NCBI GenBank assembly: GCA_021824625.1 | Contig: JAKAKE010000147.1 | Span: forward strand, 1-34,416 | DNA from: Bacteroidota bacterium | Lineage (GTDB): Bacteria; Bacteroidota; Ignavibacteria; Kapaibacteriales; UBA2268 | DNA: 34,416 nucleotides | Direction: 5' to 3' | In this document: piece after piece, positions 8,453-30,150 of the stretch | How positions within the stretch are numbered: position 1 is the first letter of the stretch | Layout of the letters: the number at the start of each line of letters is the position of its first letter | The notes under the pieces: model-generated | What the model was told of the DNA's origin: nothing | Database searches by the model: none | Seen by the model: only the letters and a program-made list of their open reading frames with translations | Made by a program: the position numbers and the translations under genes

Positions 8453-11329
8453 ATGTATATAAAAATTGTGACTAAATCATTTTTACTTTTGATAATTTTT
8501 AGCTTTTTCTATACCATTACTTATGGGAATGAATACAAAAGTCAAACTGTGGTTGTCAAATTTAATAACAACTTTACAGGGTATAATAACTGGCTCATGC
8601 AGAGCAGGAGCGGTGAAATTGAAGCATTATTACCTGTTATAGGAGCAAATAAAAGCAAAGGATTTATCTCAAATTCAAATATTAACCTCATCCGCAAGAG
8701 ATTAAATAAACAAAATAATATTCTTATCTCTGGCCCAACATCAATAGCAGAAAATCTATTGAAGATTTGTGTCATAGAGTATGAATTTGATATTGACCCG
8801 TTAATTGCATCTAAGAAAATATCAACAATTCCCGGTATTGATTACGCAGAGCCTTTGTATATTCAACATCTTCTCGATATTCCAAATGATTCACTGGTCA
8901 GCTTTCAGTCTCACTTAAGCAGGATAAAAGCTTTTGAAGCCTGGGATATACTCGATACAAACATAAATTCTATTATTGGAATCATTGACACCGGTGTTGA
9001 TTATTTGCACGAGGATTTGAAGGATAATTTATATATTAATTCAGGTGAATCCGGAGTTGATGAACGAGGAAACGATAAAAGAACTAATAAGTTAGATGAC
9101 GATTCGAACGGATATATAGATGATTGGATGGGTTGGGATTTTGTAAGCTTTGATTCTATTGAAGGCGATAATGACCCACATCCCGGTAATGGGCATGGTA
9201 CACACGTTGCCGGAATTTGTGCGGCAGTAATAAATAATGGAGTAGGTATTGCGGGAGTTGCTAAAAAAGCAAAATATCTACCTGTAAAAGTCGCTCCTGA
9301 CGAAGCATTTAATACTTCTGTTATAAGCGGTTATGATGGAATAATGTATGCAGCCGGAATGGGTGCTAATGTAATAAATTGTTCATGGGGAAGTTCGAGC
9401 AAATCCGAAGCCGAGCAGGAAATTATTGATGCTGCTGTAAGCCTCGGCTCAGTGGTAGTAGCAGCAGCCGGTAATGATGGCAGAAATATAGCATTTTACC
9501 CATCATCACATTCAAGCGTTCTTTCTGTTACCGCAGTAGATTCTGAAGATAAGAAAGCCGGATTTTCAAATTTTCATAATACTATTGATGTATCTGCTCC
9601 GGGTGTTGATATTATATCTACAATACCGGATAATCAGTATTCATATTTGAGCGGAACTTCTATGGCGGCACCTGTCGCCAGTGGTGTTGCGGCATTAGTG
9701 TGTGAGCAATATCCCGAATATAAACCGATTCAAATTATTCAACAAATTAAATCAACTACTGATAATATTGATACTCTGAATCCATACCTTAATGGAATGC
9801 TCGGTACGGGTAGGGTAAATGCTCTGAAAGCATTAACTGATTCAAATATCAAATCAATTCTGGTGAAATCATATAAAACCGAAGATAATAACGATGAGAT
9901 TTTTGACAGAGGGGATACTATCAGGCTAAGCCTTTCATTGCTGAATGTACTAAGGCCAGTAAAGGATGGATGGGTAAAATTGAGCATCAGTGATAATAAT
10001 TTTATAATTTTAAAAGATAATTCATTTATTGGAGGGATGGCTTCACTCGAACTTAGGGAATTGGCGGATACTTTGTTTTTCATTGTTCCTGATAATATTC
10101 CCGCTGACAGCAAAGTCATGCTCGAATTTAGAATGTTTGACGACACGAGTTACTGCAACAGCGAATTTATCGAAATGACCTTTAGGCCGACTTACAAAAC
10201 GATGAATGCAAATAACATTACTGTTACATTCAATAACATTGGGAATATCGGTTACAACGATTATCCGAATAACAACCAAGGGGATGGATTTAAATATAAA
10301 GACAGTCCAAATCTAATGTTTGAAGGTGCATTAATGGTTGGAACATCTGCTGAAAGACTGTCAAATGTAGCTCGTGGACTATCTCAGATTGAGCAAGACC
10401 GCTCCTTTCAGTCAGATGATATTTTCAAAGTGTTTAAGAATGGTTCTGTTGCAGCACAGGATGGATACTCGAATTTTTATGATTTGAATTCAGTTTATGA
10501 TGCAGGTGTTAGTGTTAGTCAGAAAGTTTACCAGTTTGATGACAGCATAAGCCGCGATTTTATTTTAGTTGTGTATGATATAATTAATATCTCGGGTTAT
10601 GATACTGATTCTTTGTTTGCATCTTTGTTTTTTGATTGGGACATAGGCCCTTCAGGAAGTTATAACAAGGCTGAATACGATAATCAGCAGGTATTCGGAT
10701 ATGTAAGAAATGTCAGAGATACAAGTTATCCAATGGTTGGTGCCTCGATGTTATCTTCACATAAATTGAATTTTTATGCAATTGATAATGATGGAAGGCC
10801 CGGCATCTGGGACGGTTTCCCGAGGAATGAGAAATGGATGTTTATGAGCAGCGGCATACTTCAGAAGGAGTCTGGAATTACTGATGTTTCAATGGTAATT
10901 GGAGCCGGACCCATAAAGATGATGAATGGAGATACAACCAGGGTCACATTTTGTTTATTCGGGGGTAAAACATTGGATGACTTGAGAGCCACTGCCAAAT
11001 CATCACGTGAAAAAGCAATTTCGCTTCACATTGCCGACAGCACTTTCAATCCTCTTCCAAATAAGGATTCAATTTTTATTATATATCCAAATCCAACCGA
11101 CAAATCTACCTTGAGGATGGATTTTGGTTTGACAAACAGTTCATATATAAAAATTGAAGTTATTGATATTTCAGGAAAAATCATTGAAGCACCGGTGCCT
11201 GAAAAATACTTTTCTGCAGGTTATTATACTGAATTTATTCCTGTGCAGAACCTTAGCCAGGGGCGGTATTATCTTAAACTGACTACAGGATATGGAAAGA
11301 TTGTTGAGCCGTTTGAGGTGGTGAGGTAA
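8453..11329 (+). CDS. Secreted S8 (subtilisin-like) serine protease with a T9SS type A sorting domain
   Basis: This 958-residue protein has a signal peptide (residues 1-25), a propeptide-like region to about 140, and a peptidase S8 domain at about 165-465. The catalytic triad is visible: Asp179 in GIIDTGVD, His248 in GNGHGTHVAG and Ser403 in LSGTSMAAP, with the oxyanion Asn341 in AAGNDG. The stretch 465-870 is beta-rich and probably forms Ig-like or jelly-roll domains. The last 80 residues (IYPNPTDKSTLRMDFGL, IEVIDISGKIIEAP, then GRYYLKLTTG) are a classical T9SS type A C-terminal signal. The product should therefore cross the outer membrane by type IX secretion and be released or anchored at the surface. 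A GGGAG ribosome-binding site precedes the ATG. An AATTNNN heptad tract starts four bases after the stop codon. Confidence 0.95.
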   Translation: MYIKIVTKSFLLLIIFSFFYTITYGNEYKSQTVVVKFNNNFTGYNNWLMQSRSGEIEALLPVIGANKSKGFISNSNINLIRKRLNKQNNILISGPTSIAENLLKICVIEYEFDIDPLIASKKISTIPGIDYAEPLYIQHLLDIPNDSLVSFQSHLSRIKAFEAWDILDTNINSIIGIIDTGVDYLHEDLKDNLYINSGESGVDERGNDKRTNKLDDDSNGYIDDWMGWDFVSFDSIEGDNDPHPGNGHGTHVAGICAAVINNGVGIAGVAKKAKYLPVKVAPDEAFNTSVISGYDGIMYAAGMGANVINCSWGSSSKSEAEQEIIDAAVSLGSVVVAAAGNDGRNIAFYPSSHSSVLSVTAVDSEDKKAGFSNFHNTIDVSAPGVDIISTIPDNQYSYLSGTSMAAPVASGVAALVCEQYPEYKPIQIIQQIKSTTDNIDTLNPYLNGMLGTGRVNALKALTDSNIKSILVKSYKTEDNNDEIFDRGDTIRLSLSLLNVLRPVKDGWVKLSISDNNFIILKDNSFIGGMASLELRELADTLFFIVPDNIPADSKVMLEFRMFDDTSYCNSEFIEMTFRPTYKTMNANNITVTFNNIGNIGYNDYPNNNQGDGFKYKDSPNLMFEGALMVGTSAERLSNVARGLSQIEQDRSFQSDDIFKVFKNGSVAAQDGYSNFYDLNSVYDAGVSVSQKVYQFDDSISRDFILVVYDIINISGYDTDSLFASLFFDWDIGPSGSYNKAEYDNQQVFGYVRNVRDTSYPMVGASMLSSHKLNFYAIDNDGRPGIWDGFPRNEKWMFMSSGILQKESGITDVSMVIGAGPIKMMNGDTTRVTFCLFGGKTLDDLRATAKSSREKAISLHIADSTFNPLPNKDSIFIIYPNPTDKSTLRMDFGLTNSSYIKIEVIDISGKIIEAPVPEKYFSAGYYTEFIPVQNLSQGRYYLKLTTGYGKIVEPFEVVR

Positions 11330-11333
11330 ATGT

Positions 11334-11389
11334 AATTACTAATTACTAATTACTAATTACGAATTAATAATTTCGAATTAATAATTACT
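11334..11389. repeat. Heptameric AATTNNN tandem repeat, 8 units
   Basis: AATT recurs every seventh base for eight consecutive units (AATTACT, AATTACG, AATTAAT and AATTTCG variants), beginning four bases after the protease stop codon. A ninth, imperfect unit (AATGATT) follows. It is one of four such tracts in the window. Confidence 0.85.
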
Positions 11390-11557
11390 AATGATTTAAG
11401 AATAATTGATTTATATCTCAATTAAATTATCCTAAAATATGATAAATAATTTTAAATATTTTTCATATTAATATTATACTCAATTTATATTTTTTTCGTC
11501 TATTTTCCCATAATTAAAACAACTTTGTAATATTTAATAATTTTAAGTGGTTGTTGA

Positions 11558-12598
11558 ATGTTCCGATTTGAAAATAGTATTTTTTTATATACGCTGGTTC
11601 TTGTACCGGCGTTTGCATTACTTTATTTTCTTCTTAGAAATTACAGGAAGAATTTACTTAAAAAATATGGGGACATCAGTCTCCTGAATCAGCTAATGCC
11701 TGAAGTATCGAAATATAAAAATGTGTTGAAGATTTCGTTACTGCTATCAGGCCTGGCTTTTCTTATACTTGGAATTGCTAATCCGCAAATAGGTACTAAG
11801 CTCGAAAATTTCAAGCGGGAAGGCATTGATGTTATAATAGCTATTGATGTGTCGAACAGTATGAAAGCTGAAGACGTAAAACCAAACAGGCTTGAACGGG
11901 CTAAGCAGTATGTATCGAAATTGATTGATAAAATGTATAATGACAGAATCGGTTTGATTGTCTTCGCAGGAGATGCTTTCATTCAATTACCCTTGACTAC
12001 TGATTATTCTGCCGCTAAGCTGTTTCTTAGTACTGTTGACAATGACCTTGTCTATAATCAGGGGACTGCAATAGGCAAAGCAATTGAACTCGCGATGAAA
12101 TCTTTTAAACAAGAAGAAAAGAAATACAAGGCTTTGATAATTATTACTGACGGCGAAAATCACGAAGACGATGCTATTTCTATGGCTGGTGAAGCCGCTA
12201 AGACCGGTATTGTAATATATACAATCGGAATGGGTTCTGTGAATGGTGCTCCGATCCCAATATATTCGGGAAATCAAAGAGTGAATTTCATGACCGATAA
12301 TGAGGGTAATACTGTTGTAACCAAACTTGATGCAAGCATGCTTGAACAAATTGCATCCGCCGGGGATGGAAAATTTATCCGCTCCACAGGAGATGACCCC
12401 GACCTTGCATCTATGCTCGATGAAATTGCCGGTATGGAAAAGAAAGAATACAAAGCACAACTTTTTACTGATTATGTTGATTATTTTCAGTATTTATTTG
12501 GGTTGGCTTTGGTATTGCTCCTGGCTGATATTTTTGTTTCGGAAAGAAAGAATAAATTTATTGAATCCTTGAATTTGTTTGGGGAGAAAAAAGTATGA
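11558..12598 (+). CDS. batB: BatB-like membrane protein with a von Willebrand factor A domain
   Basis: This 346-residue protein has two N-terminal membrane helices (residues about 9-27 and 55-75), a VWA domain (about 88-290) and a C-terminal helix (about 312-332). The metal-binding MIDAS motif is intact: Asp97-x-Ser99-x-Ser101 (AIDVSNSM), LTTDYS and ITDGENHEDD. The layout and the downstream order identify it as the BatB type of the Bacteroides aerotolerance operon, which forms a periplasm-facing complex with BatC and others. The first gene(s) usually found upstream (a MoxR ATPase, a DUF58 protein and BatA) are absent here, because the preceding gene is the protease. Its stop codon overlaps the batC start (ATGA), so translation is probably coupled. 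Confidence 0.9.
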   Translation: MFRFENSIFLYTLVLVPAFALLYFLLRNYRKNLLKKYGDISLLNQLMPEVSKYKNVLKISLLLSGLAFLILGIANPQIGTKLENFKREGIDVIIAIDVSNSMKAEDVKPNRLERAKQYVSKLIDKMYNDRIGLIVFAGDAFIQLPLTTDYSAAKLFLSTVDNDLVYNQGTAIGKAIELAMKSFKQEEKKYKALIIITDGENHEDDAISMAGEAAKTGIVIYTIGMGSVNGAPIPIYSGNQRVNFMTDNEGNTVVTKLDASMLEQIASAGDGKFIRSTGDDPDLASMLDEIAGMEKKEYKAQLFTDYVDYFQYLFGLALVLLLADIFVSERKNKFIESLNLFGEKKV

Positions 12599-13329
12599 AA
12601 AATCTTATTATTATTTTATTTTTGCTGCCATTAATTTGTACAGCACAGTCATATAAGGATTACCTGCGGAAAGGCAACAATCTTTATGAGCAGAAGAAAT
12701 ACAATGATGCTGAAATAAATTATTTAAAATCACTGGATAAGAAGAAAAATTCAGATAAGTCTGTTTTCAATATCGGTGATGCACTCTATAAGCAGGAACA
12801 ATATGACAAAGCAGCAGAAAAATTTAACGATTTGACTAACAGGAAAATTGACAAAGATACTCGTGCAATGGCATATCATAATCTTGGAAATTCCCTTCTA
12901 AAAGATAAAAAGTATGCCGAGAGTATCGAAGCCTATAAAAATTCGTTGAGAAATACTCCCGAGGATTTGGAAACAAAATATAATCTTGAATATGCAAAGA
13001 GAATGTTGATTCAGCAGCAACAAAAACAAAACCAGCAAAATCAAAATCAGAATCAGAACCAAAAACAACAACAGAAGCAAAAACAAGAAAATCAGGATAA
13101 TAAAGATAATAAAGATAATAAAGATAAAAACAAGCAAAACCAACAACAGCAGAATCAACAGGAACAAAATAATAAGGAACAACAGAAACAGCAGCAACAG
13201 CAGCCAAAAATTTCTAAGAAGGATGCTCAGAGAATGTTACAGGCTCTGGCAAACGAAGAAAAAAATCTTCAGAAGAAGCTTAATAAACAAGTTGGTACCG
13301 GCAGAGTGAAGACAACAAAACCATGGTGA
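12595..13329 (+). CDS. batC: BatC-like tetratricopeptide protein with a Gln/Asn/Lys-rich linker
   Basis: This 244-residue exported protein has a signal peptide (MKNLIIILFLLPLICTAQS), about three TPR units at residues 20-125 (KGNNLYEQKKYNDAEINYLK, then YHNLGNSLLKDKKYAESIEAY) and a low-complexity linker at about 139-204 made almost entirely of Gln, Asn, Lys and Asp. The C-terminal segment SKKDAQRMLQALANEEKNLQ, ending in KPW, is typical of BatC. TPRs probably bind partner Bat proteins in the periplasm. The linker is encoded by nearly pure A/C/G codons, so long open frames appear on the opposite strand without being genes. It overlaps batB by 4 bases. Confidence 0.88.
   Translation: MKNLIIILFLLPLICTAQSYKDYLRKGNNLYEQKKYNDAEINYLKSLDKKKNSDKSVFNIGDALYKQEQYDKAAEKFNDLTNRKIDKDTRAMAYHNLGNSLLKDKKYAESIEAYKNSLRNTPEDLETKYNLEYAKRMLIQQQQKQNQQNQNQNQNQKQQQKQKQENQDNKDNKDNKDKNKQNQQQQNQQEQNNKEQQKQQQQQPKISKKDAQRMLQALANEEKNLQKKLNKQVGTGRVKTTKPW
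13096..13122 (+). repeat. Triple 9-bp in-frame repeat (GATAATAAA) within batC
   Basis: GATAATAAA occurs three times in a row and encodes Asp-Asn-Lys units, followed by a partial fourth. The unit is a multiple of three, so copy-number change would alter linker length without a frameshift. Confidence 0.85.
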
Positions 13330-15203
13330 AAAATAATTTGATACATGAATATAAATTGAATATGAAGGGTTTATTTTTTTTGACAATCATTGCTTTTTTA
13401 TTTTTAAATAGAGCAGTTCAGGCACAGTTTTCAGCATCTGTGAGTAAGAATCCTGTTTCAGTCGGTGAACAGTTCCAGGTTACATTTTCATTATCTAATA
13501 TGAACGGAAATAACTTTCATGCTCCCGGATTCAAAGGTTTTACTGTGCTTATGGGACCCAGCACATCACAGCAGATGAGTTTTGTTAATGGCCAGATGTC
13601 GAGAAGCATATCATATACTTATATCCTTCAGGCTGATGCTGAAGGCTCATTCCAGATTGGTTCGGCTTCTATTGACGCTGATGGAAAAACACTCAGGACA
13701 AACCCTATAAACATGACTGTAGCCAAGGGCAGTACTCAACAGCAAAAACAAACCCAGGGACAAGGACAGGACCAGTCACATGGTGCCCTAAACAATCAGG
13801 CAGATGATATTATAAGTAAGAATTTATTTTTAAGATTGAATGTCAGTAAAAAGGATGTGTACCAGGGAGAGCAGATAATAGCTACTTACGTTCTGTATGT
13901 ACATCCTGAATTGAGGCTTGTACAGTTAGTCCCTTCGCAAAATGCACCCACTTTCACAGGATTTTGGACACAGGATATTGATATTGGCAATCTACAGTTT
14001 CACACTGAAAATGTGAATGGCGTTGCATTTAATGCGGCGGTTGTCAAGAAAGTTGTATTGATTCCACAGCAAACCGGAAAGCTGACAGTAGAACCTTTTA
14101 TTTTTGAAACTGTATGCAGGTTGATTGTTCAGAATCAAACTAAAAAGCGGAGAAGTATTTTTGATGATTTCTTTTCATTCGGAAACCAGTATCAGGATTT
14201 TAAGTATAATGCAAGCTCCGGTGCTGTTACGATTAATGTTAAGCCGCTACCCGCAGGGGCTCCGCCTGACTTTAACGGAGGAGTTGGGAACCTCTCTATG
14301 AAAGCATGGATTGATAGACCTAAGACAAAGGCCAACGAGCCTGTTAATTTGAAGATACAGATTTCAGGAAATGGAAATTTGAAATTGGTTGAACCATTTG
14401 AACTCAAGCTGCCGCCTGATATTGAAACTTATGACCCAAAGGTGAATGATAATATTTCTGTGTCCGGTTCAGGTGTTTCCGGCTCAAGAACTTTCGAATA
14501 CCTGCTTATTCCGAGACATGAAGGTGAATATAAAATTGAGCCTGTTGGCTTCTCATATTTTGATTTATCATCCAAGCAGTACAAAACACTAACATCGCAG
14601 GAATTTATTATCCATGTAGAGCAGGGGACAGGTGAAGATGCCTACCAGTCAGTCGGAGGAGTGAAAAAAGAAGACATTAAGTATATCGGGAAGGATATAA
14701 GATTTATAAAAAATTTATCGGCAGGCTTATCTAAGAAAAGCAATACATTCTTTGGTTCCGCCGGGTTTTATGCTTTGTTCTTTTCACCAATGTTTTTGTT
14801 TCTTTTGTTTTATATTTATTTAAAAAGACAACAGAAATTGGAAGGCAATCAAGCTTTGCTGAAAAATAAAAGAGCAACAAAGATGGCAAGGAAACGCCTC
14901 CAGACTGCTAAATTATTACTTAATCAATCCAATGATGATAAATTTTATGAAGAAGTATCCCATGCTTTGTGGGGATATCTGAGCGATAAGCTGACAATTC
15001 CAATATCAGAATTGAACAAGGACAGTGCTTCATTTGCAATGAGTCGAAGGAGTGTTGGTGAAGAAAAGATACAGCAATGCATTTCAACCATTGATTATTG
15101 CGAATTTGCACGCTTTTCAAGTTCATCGAATGATGTAAGTCAACAAAATATATATGATGATGCTGTAAAAGTTATAACAGAATTGGAAGGGGCTTTAAGA
15201 TGA
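13323..15203 (+). CDS. batD: BatD-like membrane protein with a large extracytoplasmic region
   Basis: The open frame has 626 codons, but the real start is probably Met14 (ATG at 13362), because it places MKGLFFLTIIAFLFLNRAVQAQ as a clean signal peptide. The extracytoplasmic part (to about 485) contains repeated beta-sandwich segments such as SASVSKNPVSVGEQFQVTFS and LNVSKKDVYQGEQIIATYVL, characteristic of BatD. A membrane helix follows (about 487-507, FYALFFSPMFLFLLFYIYL), then a helical cytoplasmic tail. With BatB, BatC and BatE it probably forms one envelope complex. Reported phenotypes of Bat systems include oxygen tolerance and stress fitness, but the molecular role is still unclear. The 3' end overlaps batE by 4 bases (ATGA). 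Confidence 0.9.
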   Translation: MVKNNLIHEYKLNMKGLFFLTIIAFLFLNRAVQAQFSASVSKNPVSVGEQFQVTFSLSNMNGNNFHAPGFKGFTVLMGPSTSQQMSFVNGQMSRSISYTYILQADAEGSFQIGSASIDADGKTLRTNPINMTVAKGSTQQQKQTQGQGQDQSHGALNNQADDIISKNLFLRLNVSKKDVYQGEQIIATYVLYVHPELRLVQLVPSQNAPTFTGFWTQDIDIGNLQFHTENVNGVAFNAAVVKKVVLIPQQTGKLTVEPFIFETVCRLIVQNQTKKRRSIFDDFFSFGNQYQDFKYNASSGAVTINVKPLPAGAPPDFNGGVGNLSMKAWIDRPKTKANEPVNLKIQISGNGNLKLVEPFELKLPPDIETYDPKVNDNISVSGSGVSGSRTFEYLLIPRHEGEYKIEPVGFSYFDLSSKQYKTLTSQEFIIHVEQGTGEDAYQSVGGVKKEDIKYIGKDIRFIKNLSAGLSKKSNTFFGSAGFYALFFSPMFLFLLFYIYLKRQQKLEGNQALLKNKRATKMARKRLQTAKLLLNQSNDDKFYEEVSHALWGYLSDKLTIPISELNKDSASFAMSRRSVGEEKIQQCISTIDYCEFARFSSSSNDVSQQNIYDDAVKVITELEGALR

Positions 15204-15971: not shown

Positions 15972-16006
15972 AATTATAAATTCGTAATTCACAATTCGTA
16001 ATTGGT
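15972..16006. repeat. Heptameric AATTNNN tandem repeat, 5 units
   Basis: Units AATTATA, AATTCGT, AATTCAC, AATTCGT and AATTGGT follow each other without gaps. The tract lies between the convergent stop codons of batE and the DUF5686 gene and touches the latter's stop codon. Confidence 0.8.
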
Positions 16007-22546: not shown

Positions 22547-22572
22547 AAAACCTCACCAAAATGATGAGGTTT
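22545..22572. terminator. Bidirectional terminator between convergent genes
   Basis: AAACCTCACCA, loop AAA, TGATGAGGTTT forms an 11-bp stem with one C-A mismatch. On the minus strand it is followed by six T, giving a good terminator for the dehydrogenase. On the plus strand only TTTAATT follows the arm, but the stem starts at the methyltransferase stop codon. Confidence 0.7.
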
Positions 22573-22607
22573 AATTATTAATTTTCAATTATCAATTTTC
22601 AATTAAA
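22573..22607. repeat. Heptameric AATTNNN tandem repeat, 5 units
   Basis: Units AATTATT, AATTTTC, AATTATC, AATTTTC and AATTAAA are contiguous, lie directly next to the terminator hairpin and overlap the stop codon of the dehydrogenase gene. Confidence 0.75.
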
Positions 22608-23574
22608 TAAGTCCTTTTTTATGCTTTTCAGTTAAATTCGCAAGCATATCTTTTGTCATCGAGTCGAGGTCGTAAGAAGGCTTCCAGCCCCATTCTTCAC
22701 GGGCGGCAGTGTCTTCAACGTCATCGGGCCAGGAATCTGCAATAGCCTGTCTGAAATCTGGTTCATAGTTGATTGTAAATTCCGGGATGTATTTTTTTAT
22801 GGAATCAGCAAGTGTTTTTACATCAAAACTCATCGAACCGACATTGAAATCATTATGATGTTTGAGATTTTCAAAAGGTGCTTCCATCAAATCCATCGTT
22901 GACTTAAGACAGTCAGGCATATACATCATCGGAAGCTTTGTCTGCTCATTAACAAAGCAAGTATAGTGCTTATTTTTGACTGCTTCATAATAAATAGCAA
23001 CAGCATAATCTGTTGTTCCTCCGCCGGGCATTGTTTCGGATGAGATTATACCGGGATAACGTAAACCACGGCTGTCCAATCCGAATTTCTTTACATAATA
23101 ATCGGCTAACAACTCTCCTGCAACTTTTGTAACGCCGTACATGGTAGTCGGCTTCAATGCTGTCTCCTGTGGAGCCTTTGCAGGAGTGCCGGGTCCCCAA
23201 ACTGCAATTGAACTTGGTATAATCACTCTTGCCATTTCATATTGTACGGCAAGGTTGAGTATTACAATTGTACCATTCATATTGACATCCCAGCAAAGCA
23301 TAGGATTTTTCTCCCCGACACCGGAAAGAATAGCTGCCATGTGGATAATTGTATCAATATTATATTTTTTTATCATTTCTTCTACTGATGCAGGGTCATT
23401 AACATTAATAAAATGAAAAGGGCCAGATTCGCGAAGTTCTTTACTCGGTTCGGTTTTTCTACCAGTAGCTATTACATTTTCAGCACCGTATTTTTTTCTC
23501 AGGGTGAGTGTAAGCTCAGAGCCAATCTGTCCAACAGAACCCGTTACGAGTATCTTTTTAATTTCTTTTTTCAT
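22603..23574 (-). CDS. SDR-type L-threonine 3-dehydrogenase (NAD-dependent epimerase-like)
   Basis: This 323-residue extended short-chain dehydrogenase has an NAD-binding motif TGSVGQIG at residues 11-18, the catalytic pair Tyr146 and Lys150 (MYGVTK), and a Ser pair at 121-122 (PSSIAVWGP). The segment RYPGIISSETMPGGGTTDYA is characteristic of the epimerase-like threonine dehydrogenases that oxidise L-threonine to 2-amino-3-oxobutyrate, as distinct from the zinc-dependent type. The neighbouring upstream gene encodes the partner KBL, which supports this assignment over a sugar epimerase. It is separated from kbl by 88 bases containing a strong terminator, so expression depends on read-through or on a promoter of its own. 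Confidence 0.9.
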   Translation of the reverse strand: MKKEIKKILVTGSVGQIGSELTLTLRKKYGAENVIATGRKTEPSKELRESGPFHFINVNDPASVEEMIKKYNIDTIIHMAAILSGVGEKNPMLCWDVNMNGTIVILNLAVQYEMARVIIPSSIAVWGPGTPAKAPQETALKPTTMYGVTKVAGELLADYYVKKFGLDSRGLRYPGIISSETMPGGGTTDYAVAIYYEAVKNKHYTCFVNEQTKLPMMYMPDCLKSTMDLMEAPFENLKHHNDFNVGSMSFDVKTLADSIKKYIPEFTINYEPDFRQAIADSWPDDVEDTAAREEWGWKPSYDLDSMTKDMLANLTEKHKKGLI

Positions 23575-27995: not shown

Positions 27996-30014
27996 TCATT
28001 TGTTTTTTAATATTACAAATTCAACCCTGCGGTTTTGTTGTCTTCCTTCGTCTGTTTTATTATCGGTTATAGGTTTTGTATCTCCAAATCCAAGTGTAAT
28101 TAAACGGTCATTCGGAACACCGTTTGAATGAAGATATTCAGCAACTGCATCAGCCCTGTTTTGGGATAATATCATATTACTTTTTTTATTGCCGATATTA
28201 TCAGTATGGCCGTTTATCTGAATTTGAAATGTAGGGTTATCTTTCAAAAACTTTATTATTCGATTTAATTCAGGATATGAATCAAGAAGGATTTCATATT
28301 TCCCAAATTCAAAGAACAGGTTATTCATTTTTACAGTCTGGCCTTCTTCGATCGGAACGAGATAAAGATTCTTTTTTTGTTCTTCATATTTTTTTATATC
28401 CCTTAGGTCAAGGTTTTCATCAATAGCTATATAATCCTTGGCTTCGGCAATAACGCCATATTTTTCTCCGGCTGGGAGAACAATTTTATATTCGCCGCTT
28501 ATTGGATTTGTTCTCGCAATACCTGCTTCTTTTCCATCGGGGAGAGTTTCGTATTTGACTAAGGCATCGAGTGGTTCATTTGTTTTAGCATTTACAACTT
28601 TTCCGGAAATAAGCATAACTGATTTAGGTTTCATTTCCGATGGTAATTTGATGCGGTATATATCATGTAAATTACCATCATTATGGGTTGAAACGAAGTA
28701 TGCATATTCACCTGATGCAGGTATTGTATAATAAGCATCCCACCCTGACGTATTGATTGAAGGACCAAGATTTTCAGGCTCAGACCATTTCAACCAGGTA
28801 CTGTCGAGCCTCCTTGACAGAAACATATCATTAAATCCAAATCCTGGATAACCGGCTGATGAAAAATAAAGTGTTTTTTCATCGGAGGCTATAAATGGTG
28901 AAACTTCATCGGAGGCTGTATTAATTCCATGACCAATATTTATAGGTTCAGACCAGCTTCCATCCTGCTTATGAAAACTAACATAAATATCAAGACCGCC
29001 ATAAGAATCCTCCCTTTCCAAAGACATCAGAAGAACTTTCCCGCTTGAAGCCAGGCAATAAGTAACAGATTTGCTCTTCGTATAAAATTTCTTAATTTTC
29101 AGGCTGTCAGGCATTGTCCATTTATCTCCTTTGAAGTAGCTGATTGATATGCCGGGTTTCATTAATCCATTCGGTAAATAAATATTTCCGACAAGAAGTG
29201 AATTTCCATCAGGAGTGATTGAACAAGCAAAATTATTATTATCGTTGTTTATTGGAGAGCCGAGATTGACAGCCTCTCTAAAATTTTCTAAGCTATCTAC
29301 TTCGGACATCCAGATGTCTTCCTTTTTTTGAATTCCGATATTTTCGGGATGTGATTCCCTTGTAAAAAATAATTTTTTTCCATCTGGAGATATAATAGGC
29401 GATAGTTCATCATACCTTGAATTGACAGATGTACTAAGCCTTTCAGGTGTTGCTGAATAGTAATTTTTTGATACGTCATTTATACCAAATTTGATTGTAT
29501 CCGACTCATCGGAAATTGCAATAGCATCAATTTGGGTTAGTGATTCATCTTTTCCTGGTTTTAATAACAACTTTAATTTATTTGTTTGAAATGACGGCTT
29601 ATTAATAAATATATGAAACAAACTACTTTTCTTAGAAGCGTCAGTCTGATTATCTATTTTATAAACCGTAAGTTCTTTATCAGAATTATCAATTAATCTT
29701 ATTTCTGAAATATTTCCGGGATTGAAATTTTCGTTGATTGCAATTTGAGTAACGAATATAGCAGAATCAAATTCCACTGTTATGTTTTCGTTAATGAATT
29801 GGCCCCTGTTCTTTGGAGTCCATGCACAGGGGGTCATCCCAAATTCGGGCATAACACTTGGTTTGCCTGTGATTTGTTGTGCAGAATATAATTTTGTTCC
29901 ATATTGAGTTGAAAATGAATATACCCTTGAAACCCATTGAACAATGCTATAAGTATTATATGAAGCGGTTATACTAATAGCTAAATGAAGTAATATTATT
30001 TTTAAATTTTTCAA
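27996..30014 (-). CDS. PorE-like envelope protein: PD40 beta-propeller, carboxypeptidase-regulatory-like and OmpA domains
   Basis: This 672-residue exported protein has a signal peptide (about 1-22), an N-terminal beta-sandwich (about 40-170) that may be discoidin-like, then WD40-like/PD40 propeller repeats: DELSPIISPDGKKLFFTRES, NFACSITPDGNSLLVGN and DEVSPFIASDEKTLYFSS. A carboxypeptidase-regulatory-like domain follows (VMLISGKVVNAKTNEPLDAL), and the last 115 residues are an OmpA peptidoglycan-binding domain (INGHTDNIGNKKSN, FGDTKPITDNKTDEGRQQNR). Propeller, regulatory-like and OmpA modules in this order match PorE of the type IX secretion apparatus, but the N-terminal TPR of PorE is replaced here. 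A structural T9SS or peptidoglycan-anchoring role is therefore plausible but not proven. Translation starts at TTG (30014-30012); a stop codon lies just upstream in frame and the next Met is internal. Confidence 0.85.
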   Translation of the reverse strand: MKNLKIILLHLAISITASYNTYSIVQWVSRVYSFSTQYGTKLYSAQQITGKPSVMPEFGMTPCAWTPKNRGQFINENITVEFDSAIFVTQIAINENFNPGNISEIRLIDNSDKELTVYKIDNQTDASKKSSLFHIFINKPSFQTNKLKLLLKPGKDESLTQIDAIAISDESDTIKFGINDVSKNYYSATPERLSTSVNSRYDELSPIISPDGKKLFFTRESHPENIGIQKKEDIWMSEVDSLENFREAVNLGSPINNDNNNFACSITPDGNSLLVGNIYLPNGLMKPGISISYFKGDKWTMPDSLKIKKFYTKSKSVTYCLASSGKVLLMSLEREDSYGGLDIYVSFHKQDGSWSEPINIGHGINTASDEVSPFIASDEKTLYFSSAGYPGFGFNDMFLSRRLDSTWLKWSEPENLGPSINTSGWDAYYTIPASGEYAYFVSTHNDGNLHDIYRIKLPSEMKPKSVMLISGKVVNAKTNEPLDALVKYETLPDGKEAGIARTNPISGEYKIVLPAGEKYGVIAEAKDYIAIDENLDLRDIKKYEEQKKNLYLVPIEEGQTVKMNNLFFEFGKYEILLDSYPELNRIIKFLKDNPTFQIQINGHTDNIGNKKSNMILSQNRADAVAEYLHSNGVPNDRLITLGFGDTKPITDNKTDEGRQQNRRVEFVILKNK

Positions 30015-30099: not shown

Positions 30100-30150
30100 A
30101 ATTAAAAATTGATTGAAAATTGCAAAATTGAAAATTAATAATTTAAAATG
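30100..30150. repeat. Degenerate heptameric AATT repeat tract
   Basis: AATT recurs at 30100, 30107, 30118, 30126, 30133 and 30140, mostly seven bases apart with two slips. It lies between the gpsA stop codon and the PorE-like gene, in the same kind of position as the other tracts. Confidence 0.5.

Follow-up and report, generated by a model that had tools for sequence, protein, structure and literature searches.

Eight AATT tetranucleotides set at exact 7-base intervals just past the stop codon of a protease gene are one of many arrays of the form AATTNNN in the genome of a bacterium of the phylum Bacteroidota. On balance, and with a good deal of reserve, we take these arrays to be a degenerate satellite of heptanucleotide units, gaining or losing 7 bases at a time and tolerated at the edges of open reading frames (ORFs). 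The period, the constancy of the core, the likeness of neighboring spacers, whole-unit differences between relatives and placement at stop codons all support this reading; for the single tract at 11334 no dedicated function is expected. The window – the whole stretch of 34,416 nucleotides that was analyzed – is contig C37 of a draft genome (G000; 3.58 Mb, 231 contigs).

Table 1. AATT arrays of the window and the genes around the longest of them
Feature	Position	Strand	Description
Subtilase gene	8453–11329	+	958 aa; PF00082 and Por secretion C-terminal tail PF18962
AATT heptamer array	11334–11386	+	8 AATT in 7-base steps; orthologous array with fewer units in G003
VWA-domain gene, downstream	11558–12598	+	Anchor for the orthologous region
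BatD-domain gene	13323–15203		After the VWA-domain gene
Second array	15972–16003	no strand	5 AATT; 32 of 47 bp between convergent genes
Third array	22573–22604	-	5 AATT, between convergent genes; overlaps stop of minus-strand gene 22603–23574
Short chain	30126–30143	+	3 AATT, spacers GAA and AAT; upstream of minus-strand gene 27996–30014; GAA-like class

The tract and its surroundings

The tetranucleotides of the tract begin at positions 11334, 11341, 11348, 11355, 11362, 11369, 11376 and 11383 and are separated, in order, by ACT, ACT, ACT, ACG, AAT, TCG and AAT; the last is followed by ACT and then by AATG. A 4-base gap (ATGT) divides the tract from the TAA stop codon (11327–11329) of the upstream gene, whose product is, as predicted from its two domains, a T9SS-type cargo protease. 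The exact 7-base phase and the position four bases past this gene, both described in the initial annotation, are thus confirmed (11334–11386). The intergenic gap that holds the tract has a GC content of 15%; 300 dinucleotide shuffles of the window never gave a chain of eight: the maximum was three AATT in 43 of them and two in 257. That the tract marks transcript ends, as had been suggested, was not borne out: no terminator-like site was found within 11200–11700, and in folding, the RNA of the tract has only a modest advantage over shuffled sequences (z = -2.1). Further along, positions 13015–13127 contain 18-nt and 9-nt tandem repeats within an ORF (12595–13329).

The window also holds two other chains of at least four AATT (15972–16003 and 22573–22604) and one of three (30126–30143), which the initial annotation did not mention. 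Each of the longer chains is situated between convergent genes, against the stop codon of the one on the minus strand. The first, 2 bp from that stop, has spacers without A/T direction and is present with changed spacers in G003, a sister species of the same genus. The stretch from the plus-strand stop codon to the array at 22573 contains a hairpin (22549–22571; AACCTCACCAAAATGATGAGGTT). Both its stem and its loop are variable in G003 and in another relative, G001, while the AATT phase of the adjoining array is constant.

Abundance, period and core

A hit was defined as four AATT in 7-base phase, with overlapping starts counted, so that arrays are fewer than hits. The whole draft yields 337 AATT hits compared to 22 for the reversed control TTAA. 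Chains were studied in a sample of 982,717 bp in 67 pieces (contigs picked by number, plus the window). Its 535 intergenic gaps (117,749 bp) contain 39 chains of at least four AATT, whereas 200 dinucleotide shuffles of the same gaps gave a mean of 0.06 chains and a maximum of 1: the comparison with shuffled intergenic sequence that the initial annotation had proposed shows clear enrichment.

Seven is the favored step. In the sample there are 52 AATT chains of at least four units at period 7 and 0 or 1 at the other periods from 5 to 12 (single chains at each of 9, 10 and 11), which bears out the identification as a heptameric satellite; in a smaller sample chains were also found at 14 and 21, multiples of 7. 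Among all 256 tetramers at period 7 the next best is AAAT with 16 chains, and such chains may arise within AATT arrays that have A as the last spacer base. When noncoding tandem arrays were counted regardless of unit (983 kb of G000), period 7 had 68 and periods 5, 6 and 8–12 had 0 or 1 each; 43 of these 68 are of the AATT kind, the rest being other heptamers (AACACTC, AAGTCGG and others). Period 7 leads in the other sampled genomes too, though other periods occur: G003 has 5 arrays at period 11, G066 has 9 at period 9, and G090 has 6–11 at each other period, part of which are masked N. AATT is the top period-7 word even in a 54% GC genome, the genome and its regions having been preselected for such arrays; it does not lead in the sample of G018, where AATT and TTAA have 4 chains each.

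Perfect repetition of one unit was not found: AATT alone is constant and the NNN spacers vary. Adjacent spacers are nevertheless identical in 40 of 136 cases, compared to an expected fraction of 0.08 from pooled frequencies. Other heptamer families (units like GAGTGTT, GACTTCC and CATTTTA) share intergenic spaces of G000 with AATT arrays and are also degenerate at some positions (for example L187 1639–3152; L172 2422–2533 and 17026–17141).

Placement at gene ends

Genes were called in this analysis as hexamer-scored ORFs; nine of the 52 chains lie outside gaps between two called genes and were omitted from the placement test. Of the remaining 43 arrays, 23 are within 8 bp of a stop codon compared to 10.2 under uniform placement in the same gaps (p = 0.0005) – an enrichment at stop codons, rather than random placement, in the comparison that the initial annotation had proposed. 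Near starts (within 8 bp) there is no significant excess of chains of at least four AATT (10 vs. 8.2); for chains of at least three, starts are enriched also (16 vs. 10.1, p = 0.008). Past 297 stops of G000, AATT belonging to arrays peaks within 30 nt of the stop, while single AATT words show no such peak. An artefact of ORF calling at stops was considered and rejected: an array cannot make a stop that precedes it, although some arrays run into the stop codon, for example C33_8971. Because GTG and TTG starts fall inside arrays, start-side counts were redone with ATG starts.

A stop-proximal excess is also seen, in small numbers, in five other sampled genomes: 6 of 20 arrays vs. 3.4 under uniform placement in G003 (p = 0.05), 3 of 4 vs. 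0.1 in G018, 5 of 13 vs. 1.3 in G066, 3 of 10 vs. 0.9 in G086 and 7 of 18 vs. 1.4 in G090, where G066, G086 and G090 came from a search for long AATT arrays and the stretches of G003, G010, G018 and G066 were partly selected where hits or orthologues lie. Pattern loci in other taxa gave 63 of 165 chains within 15 bp of a stop and 20 of 165 within 15 bp of a start, with mixed direction at stops (37:20); since these loci (at least 116 matches, 80 listed and all 116 used) were preselected for long arrays and their genes called by longest ORF, no weight is placed on them.

Direction of arrays

Because AATT is its own complement, the direction of an array resides in its spacers. The statement in the initial annotation that the phase exists on both strands therefore holds for AATT and fails for the spacers, which give the array a direction; in both this genome and the sister species that direction is skewed with respect to the gene. 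Read outward from the gene, near-stop arrays of G000 have spacers with A>T in 24 cases, T>A in 3 and neither in 4. The corresponding A>T to T>A ratios are 12:1 in G003, 7:0 in G066, 2:1 in G018, 0:5 in G086 and 1:3 in G090; ordinary post-stop sequence is little biased (194:171 in G000, 60:61 in G003).

A second count, with ATG starts, a 50-bp limit and arrays of a GAA-like class set apart, extends to both ends of ORFs (of the 98 chains of at least three AATT, 46 lack either an ORF end within 50 bp or an A/T direction). For non-GAA arrays the outward ratio at stops is 25:4 in G000, 11:2 in G003 and 8:0 in G066, and at starts 7:4, 5:1 and 7:0, respectively. The Nostoc genome G086 has the opposite sign at both ends (0:7 at stops, 0:2 at starts), and G090 gives 1:3 at each; in the near-stop count neither G018 nor G090 shows a clear direction. 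The GAA-like arrays of G000 deviate (0:6 at starts, 3:3 at stops). It thus seems that each lineage and class has its own sign of direction, under what looks like a rule of symmetry about the ORF. Direction as a signal at the level of RNA was also considered; it is weakened, since the sign is opposite in Nostoc and starts show direction too.

Change between related species

G003 is about 84% identical to G000 over the aligned part of the window, and the sequence covered for both comprises about 76 kb of overlap. At the 11334 site the flanks match and the array of G003 is four units shorter, less one base; G001, G002 and G015 have the same gene and no array at this site. Relative to G000, G003 has one unit more at C32_23413, one more at L187_3174 and two more at C33_8971. 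Unit number, which the initial annotation had suggested comparing, does vary between relatives: it differs by whole heptamers (1–4 units) at four of six orthologous sites. At two further loci (L246_2273 and L244_268) a chain is present in G003 and none in the mapped stretch of G000.

Substitutions were counted in five orthologous arrays of clear register, leaving out the 11334 array (register ambiguous), L187_4759 (8-nt units), and L187_2626 and C32_34268 (AATT heptads in both species, spacers of another class). One of the 84 AATT bases has changed, compared to 16 of the 48 spacer bases (Fisher p = 1.8e-7, with bases taken as independent and arrays chosen by AATT in one of the two species). 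As a control, the 45 nt past 26 orthologous stops that lack AATT arrays (a few of which carry other heptamers) are 62% identical, with 11 of 28 AATT words kept. The choice of arrays is one caveat; another is homogenization among units that all bear AATT, which would preserve AATT without selection. Neither caveat accounts for the same core tetramer recurring in distant genomes.

The array at 22573 has the same number of units in G000, G003 and G001. Between G000 and G003, 7 of its 12 spacer bases have changed and no AATT base, while between G003 and the more distant G001 only 1 of 12 spacer bases and one AATT base differ. Such a burst on one branch, with no change in unit number, looks more like replacement from another array or rapid turnover than slow drift, although selection on AATT would also produce the pattern.

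Flanking sequences and Y1 transposases

Many arrays of the GAA class in G000 come after a shared AT-rich head like TTTATTAAAAATTCATTG (C32 34268, C32 34737, L180 1094, L187 2626, L190 4095 and others). Thirteen of the 34 GAA-class chains in gaps are nearest to a start, in sense direction; this class may be a dispersed element of its own. A small number of ACG arrays lead into GTGGTTATA (C12 2327, C43 11565, C52 1227 and L242 in G000; L259 19439 in G003), and in some of these a palindrome, TCATTCTGAA...TTCAGAATCC, comes next. REP-like palindromes adjoin only some arrays, and the 11334 array has no such tail. In G066, a Blastocatellia MAG, AATTGAG arrays (L203–L207) occur in inverted pairs about 60–100 bp apart, whose interiors show no likeness by eye. 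Enriched 9-mers in the flanks number 40 on one side, compared to 6–18 in background draws, and 21 on the other, compared to 7–27.

G000 contains seven matches to Y1 transposases. Across 59 relatives, genomes with more Y1 matches tend to have more array hits (Spearman 0.51, or 0.40 after correction for genome size), and Y1 is present in 11 of the 13 genomes with at least 20 hits vs. 19 of the 46 others. Within the family (35 genomes) the size-corrected correlation is a weak 0.22 (permutation p = 0.106), and three genomes without a Y1 match (G015, G024 and G034) yet have 23, 52 and 15 hits.

Distribution across taxa

Hits were found in 26 of the 59 relatives: 187–431 in the three congeners, 0 to 428 in the other 32 genomes of the family and 0 to 13 in 24 genomes of other families. 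Among 197 other genomes of the phylum 86 have hits, with totals over the 197 genomes of 1000 for AATT, 261 for TTAA, 46 for ATAT and 34 for TATA. Of the 93 of these genomes with any hit, AATT exceeds TTAA in 79 and falls below it in 14. AATT is also behind TTAA in G075 (6 vs. 26). The Nostoc center genome, the MAG G086, has 636 AATT hits, and 28 of 97 other genomes drawn from its phylum have hits, with 4219 for AATT vs. 181 for TTAA. The remark in the initial annotation that the unit differs from that of cyanobacteria therefore does not hold: AATTNNN chains are abundant in some members of the phylum. Eight AATT in phase were found in at least 116 stretches of named genomes; among the 80 matches listed of these are Cyanobacteria, Bacteroidetes, Treponema, Acidobacteria, Desulfobacterales, Planctomycetota and others.

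Origin and maintenance of the arrays

If the arrays are a satellite, units would be gained and lost in 7-nt steps by slipped-strand pairing or unequal exchange. With AATT as their common register, units of unlike sequence would be able to misalign, and spacers would be swapped by the same turnover or from other arrays. Arrays may persist at the edges of ORFs because a 7-nt insertion there would break no reading frame and, usually, no promoter. Among the suggestions of the initial annotation, expansion by slippage fits best. Plain slippage, however, predicts no single favored tetramer, and AATT outnumbers TTAA, ATAT and TATA in the phylum (1000 vs. 261, 46 and 34) and leads at period 7 in the preselected 54% GC genome as well; nor does it predict array direction at ORF ends, yet non-GAA arrays at G000 stops stand at 25:4. 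The preference for AATT, the step of 7 and the direction are left without an explanation by the satellite reading. A further point concerns retention: AATT is better kept within arrays (1 of 84 bases changed) than as single words (11 of 28 kept), which could reflect selection instead of turnover. The arrays might then be selected elements at gene ends, acting in the mRNA 3′ region or at ORF boundaries, in which a protein reads AATT in 7-bp phase on DNA or RNA and the spacers are free because unread. The contrast between AATT and spacers in the five orthologous arrays, the peak of array AATT in the first 30 nt past stops while single words are flat, and the near-stop direction (24:3 in G000, 12:1 in G003) all speak for such an element. 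Nonetheless we hold it only as a tentative possibility: direction tends to be outward at starts too (7:4, 5:1, 7:0) and so is not simply that of the sense strand, the sign is reversed in Nostoc G086 and unclear in G018 and G090, three relatives (G001, G002 and G015) lack the 11334 array, the 11200–11700 region is without a terminator-like site, and both the picking of arrays by AATT in one species and homogenizing turnover could mimic the AATT/spacer contrast.

Alternatively, small dispersed elements of a REP or MITE kind might insert next to ORFs, with the arrays as their components or remnants; placement and direction would then be theirs. The shared flanks of some arrays (head, tail and palindrome), the inverted pairs of G066 and the correlation with Y1 across the 59 relatives, including 11 of the 13 high-hit genomes, point this way; the dissimilar interiors of the G066 pairs, the enrichment of flank 9-mers on one side only, the family-level link of 0.22 (p = 0.106), hits in three genomes without a Y1 match and the lack of such a tail at 11334 make it rather unlikely as the general explanation. 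Self-complementarity suggests a different route, by which AATT-NNN-AATT forms a mini-hairpin (4-bp stem, 3-nt loop) and single-strand structure, not sequence, matters; the modest fold score of the tract (z = -2.1) is consistent with this. TTAA, ATAT and TATA, however, could pair in the same way, yet their hits are fewer by factors of about 4, 22 and 29 in the 197 genomes compared, and the other heptamer families of G000 are not self-complementary, so that such a hairpin is a very improbable cause. Chance in AT-rich intergenic DNA, which a gap of 15% GC might invite, is refuted by the 39 chains found against a shuffle mean of 0.06, and its probability is negligible.

Comparison with known heptamer repeats

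According to two papers (PMC4679880, PMC4692102), long SSRs in most genomes are built most often of heptamers, with polymerase slippage as a proposed cause; the exact 7-nt tandem unit of the heptanucleotide long SSRs (Mrazek et al. 2007, via the same two papers) is also found here. As the nearest published parallel, Rehm et al. 2015 report GGGNATC / GGGGA(C/T)T heptamers in Xanthomonas and Nostoc, with GGGNATC no more than 50 bp from a stop when on the sense strand, or no more than 50 bp ahead of an ORF when on the antisense strand (PMC4692102). By that account GGGNATC and AATTNNN have in common a 7-nt unit, variable position, mostly intergenic location, genome-wide dispersal and length variation between relatives. 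The outward-from-ORF placement of GGGNATC is likewise seen for non-GAA AATT arrays in G000, G003 and G066, and is reversed in G086. GGGNATC is G-rich and G-quadruplex-capable, with a preference for four units, whereas AATTNNN has an AT-only core and three variable positions; a G-tract is absent from the family and from the 11334 tract, whose core is AATT. A sequence-specific activity common to several phyla that builds or preserves 7-bp-phase AATT arrays at ORF edges, directed outward, is a speculative proposal that we regard as improbable. If true, it would, with the placement rule of GGGNATC, amount to one general gene-boundary-decorating system with lineage-specific unit sequences.

AATTNNN arrays are themselves common in Nostoc and in some other members of its phylum. 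The T9SS and Bat genes of the window suggest that its own genome is not cyanobacterial. Cyanobacterial STRRs are described as fixed units; the AATT family, unlike them, mixes spacers within and between arrays. The two are alike in being 7-bp tandem units, and for STRRs function is called unknown (PMC2670836). The TAACTGA direct repeats of marine Beggiatoaceae (MacGregor 2015, PMC4679880) resemble AATTNNN as mostly intergenic heptamer arrays with a patchy distribution across phyla including Cyanobacteria and Bacteroidetes, and their indels between two Cyanothece strains are mostly of 7-nt steps. TAACTGA is one fixed unit, described as lying mostly just upstream of starts in the Beggiatoa genome, whereas AATTNNN lies mostly just past stops; the unit of the 11334 tract is AATTNNN and not TAACTGA. 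The survey in PMC4060949 scores perfect repeats of one unit, and AATTNNN arrays, being degenerate, would largely escape such a search. No paper naming the AATTNNN family was found in the open-licence literature.

Together these comparisons show that the AATTNNN family shares period, intergenic place, length changes and direction rule with known heptamers and departs from them in its three free positions and AT core. What bacterial heptamer repeats do is called unknown in the literature cited. With a fixed four-base core beside three free bases, the conserved part can be told from the drifting part, and the question of "why 7?" therefore becomes a set of testable ones: what favors AATT, why the step is 7, and why direction is set at ORF ends. 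Such set direction occurs in distant lineages: this genome, an acidobacterial MAG, Nostoc and, by publication, Xanthomonas.

Larger repeat units were seen in two genomes. In G377, of the Nostoc phylum, an identical 25-base AATT string recurs at C1:390120, 390211 and 390302, a spacing of 91 bp (13 × 7). In G010 (L215 6373–6540), AATTACG-type arrays are themselves repeated, in larger units with a spacing of about 34 bp, as a higher-order satellite.
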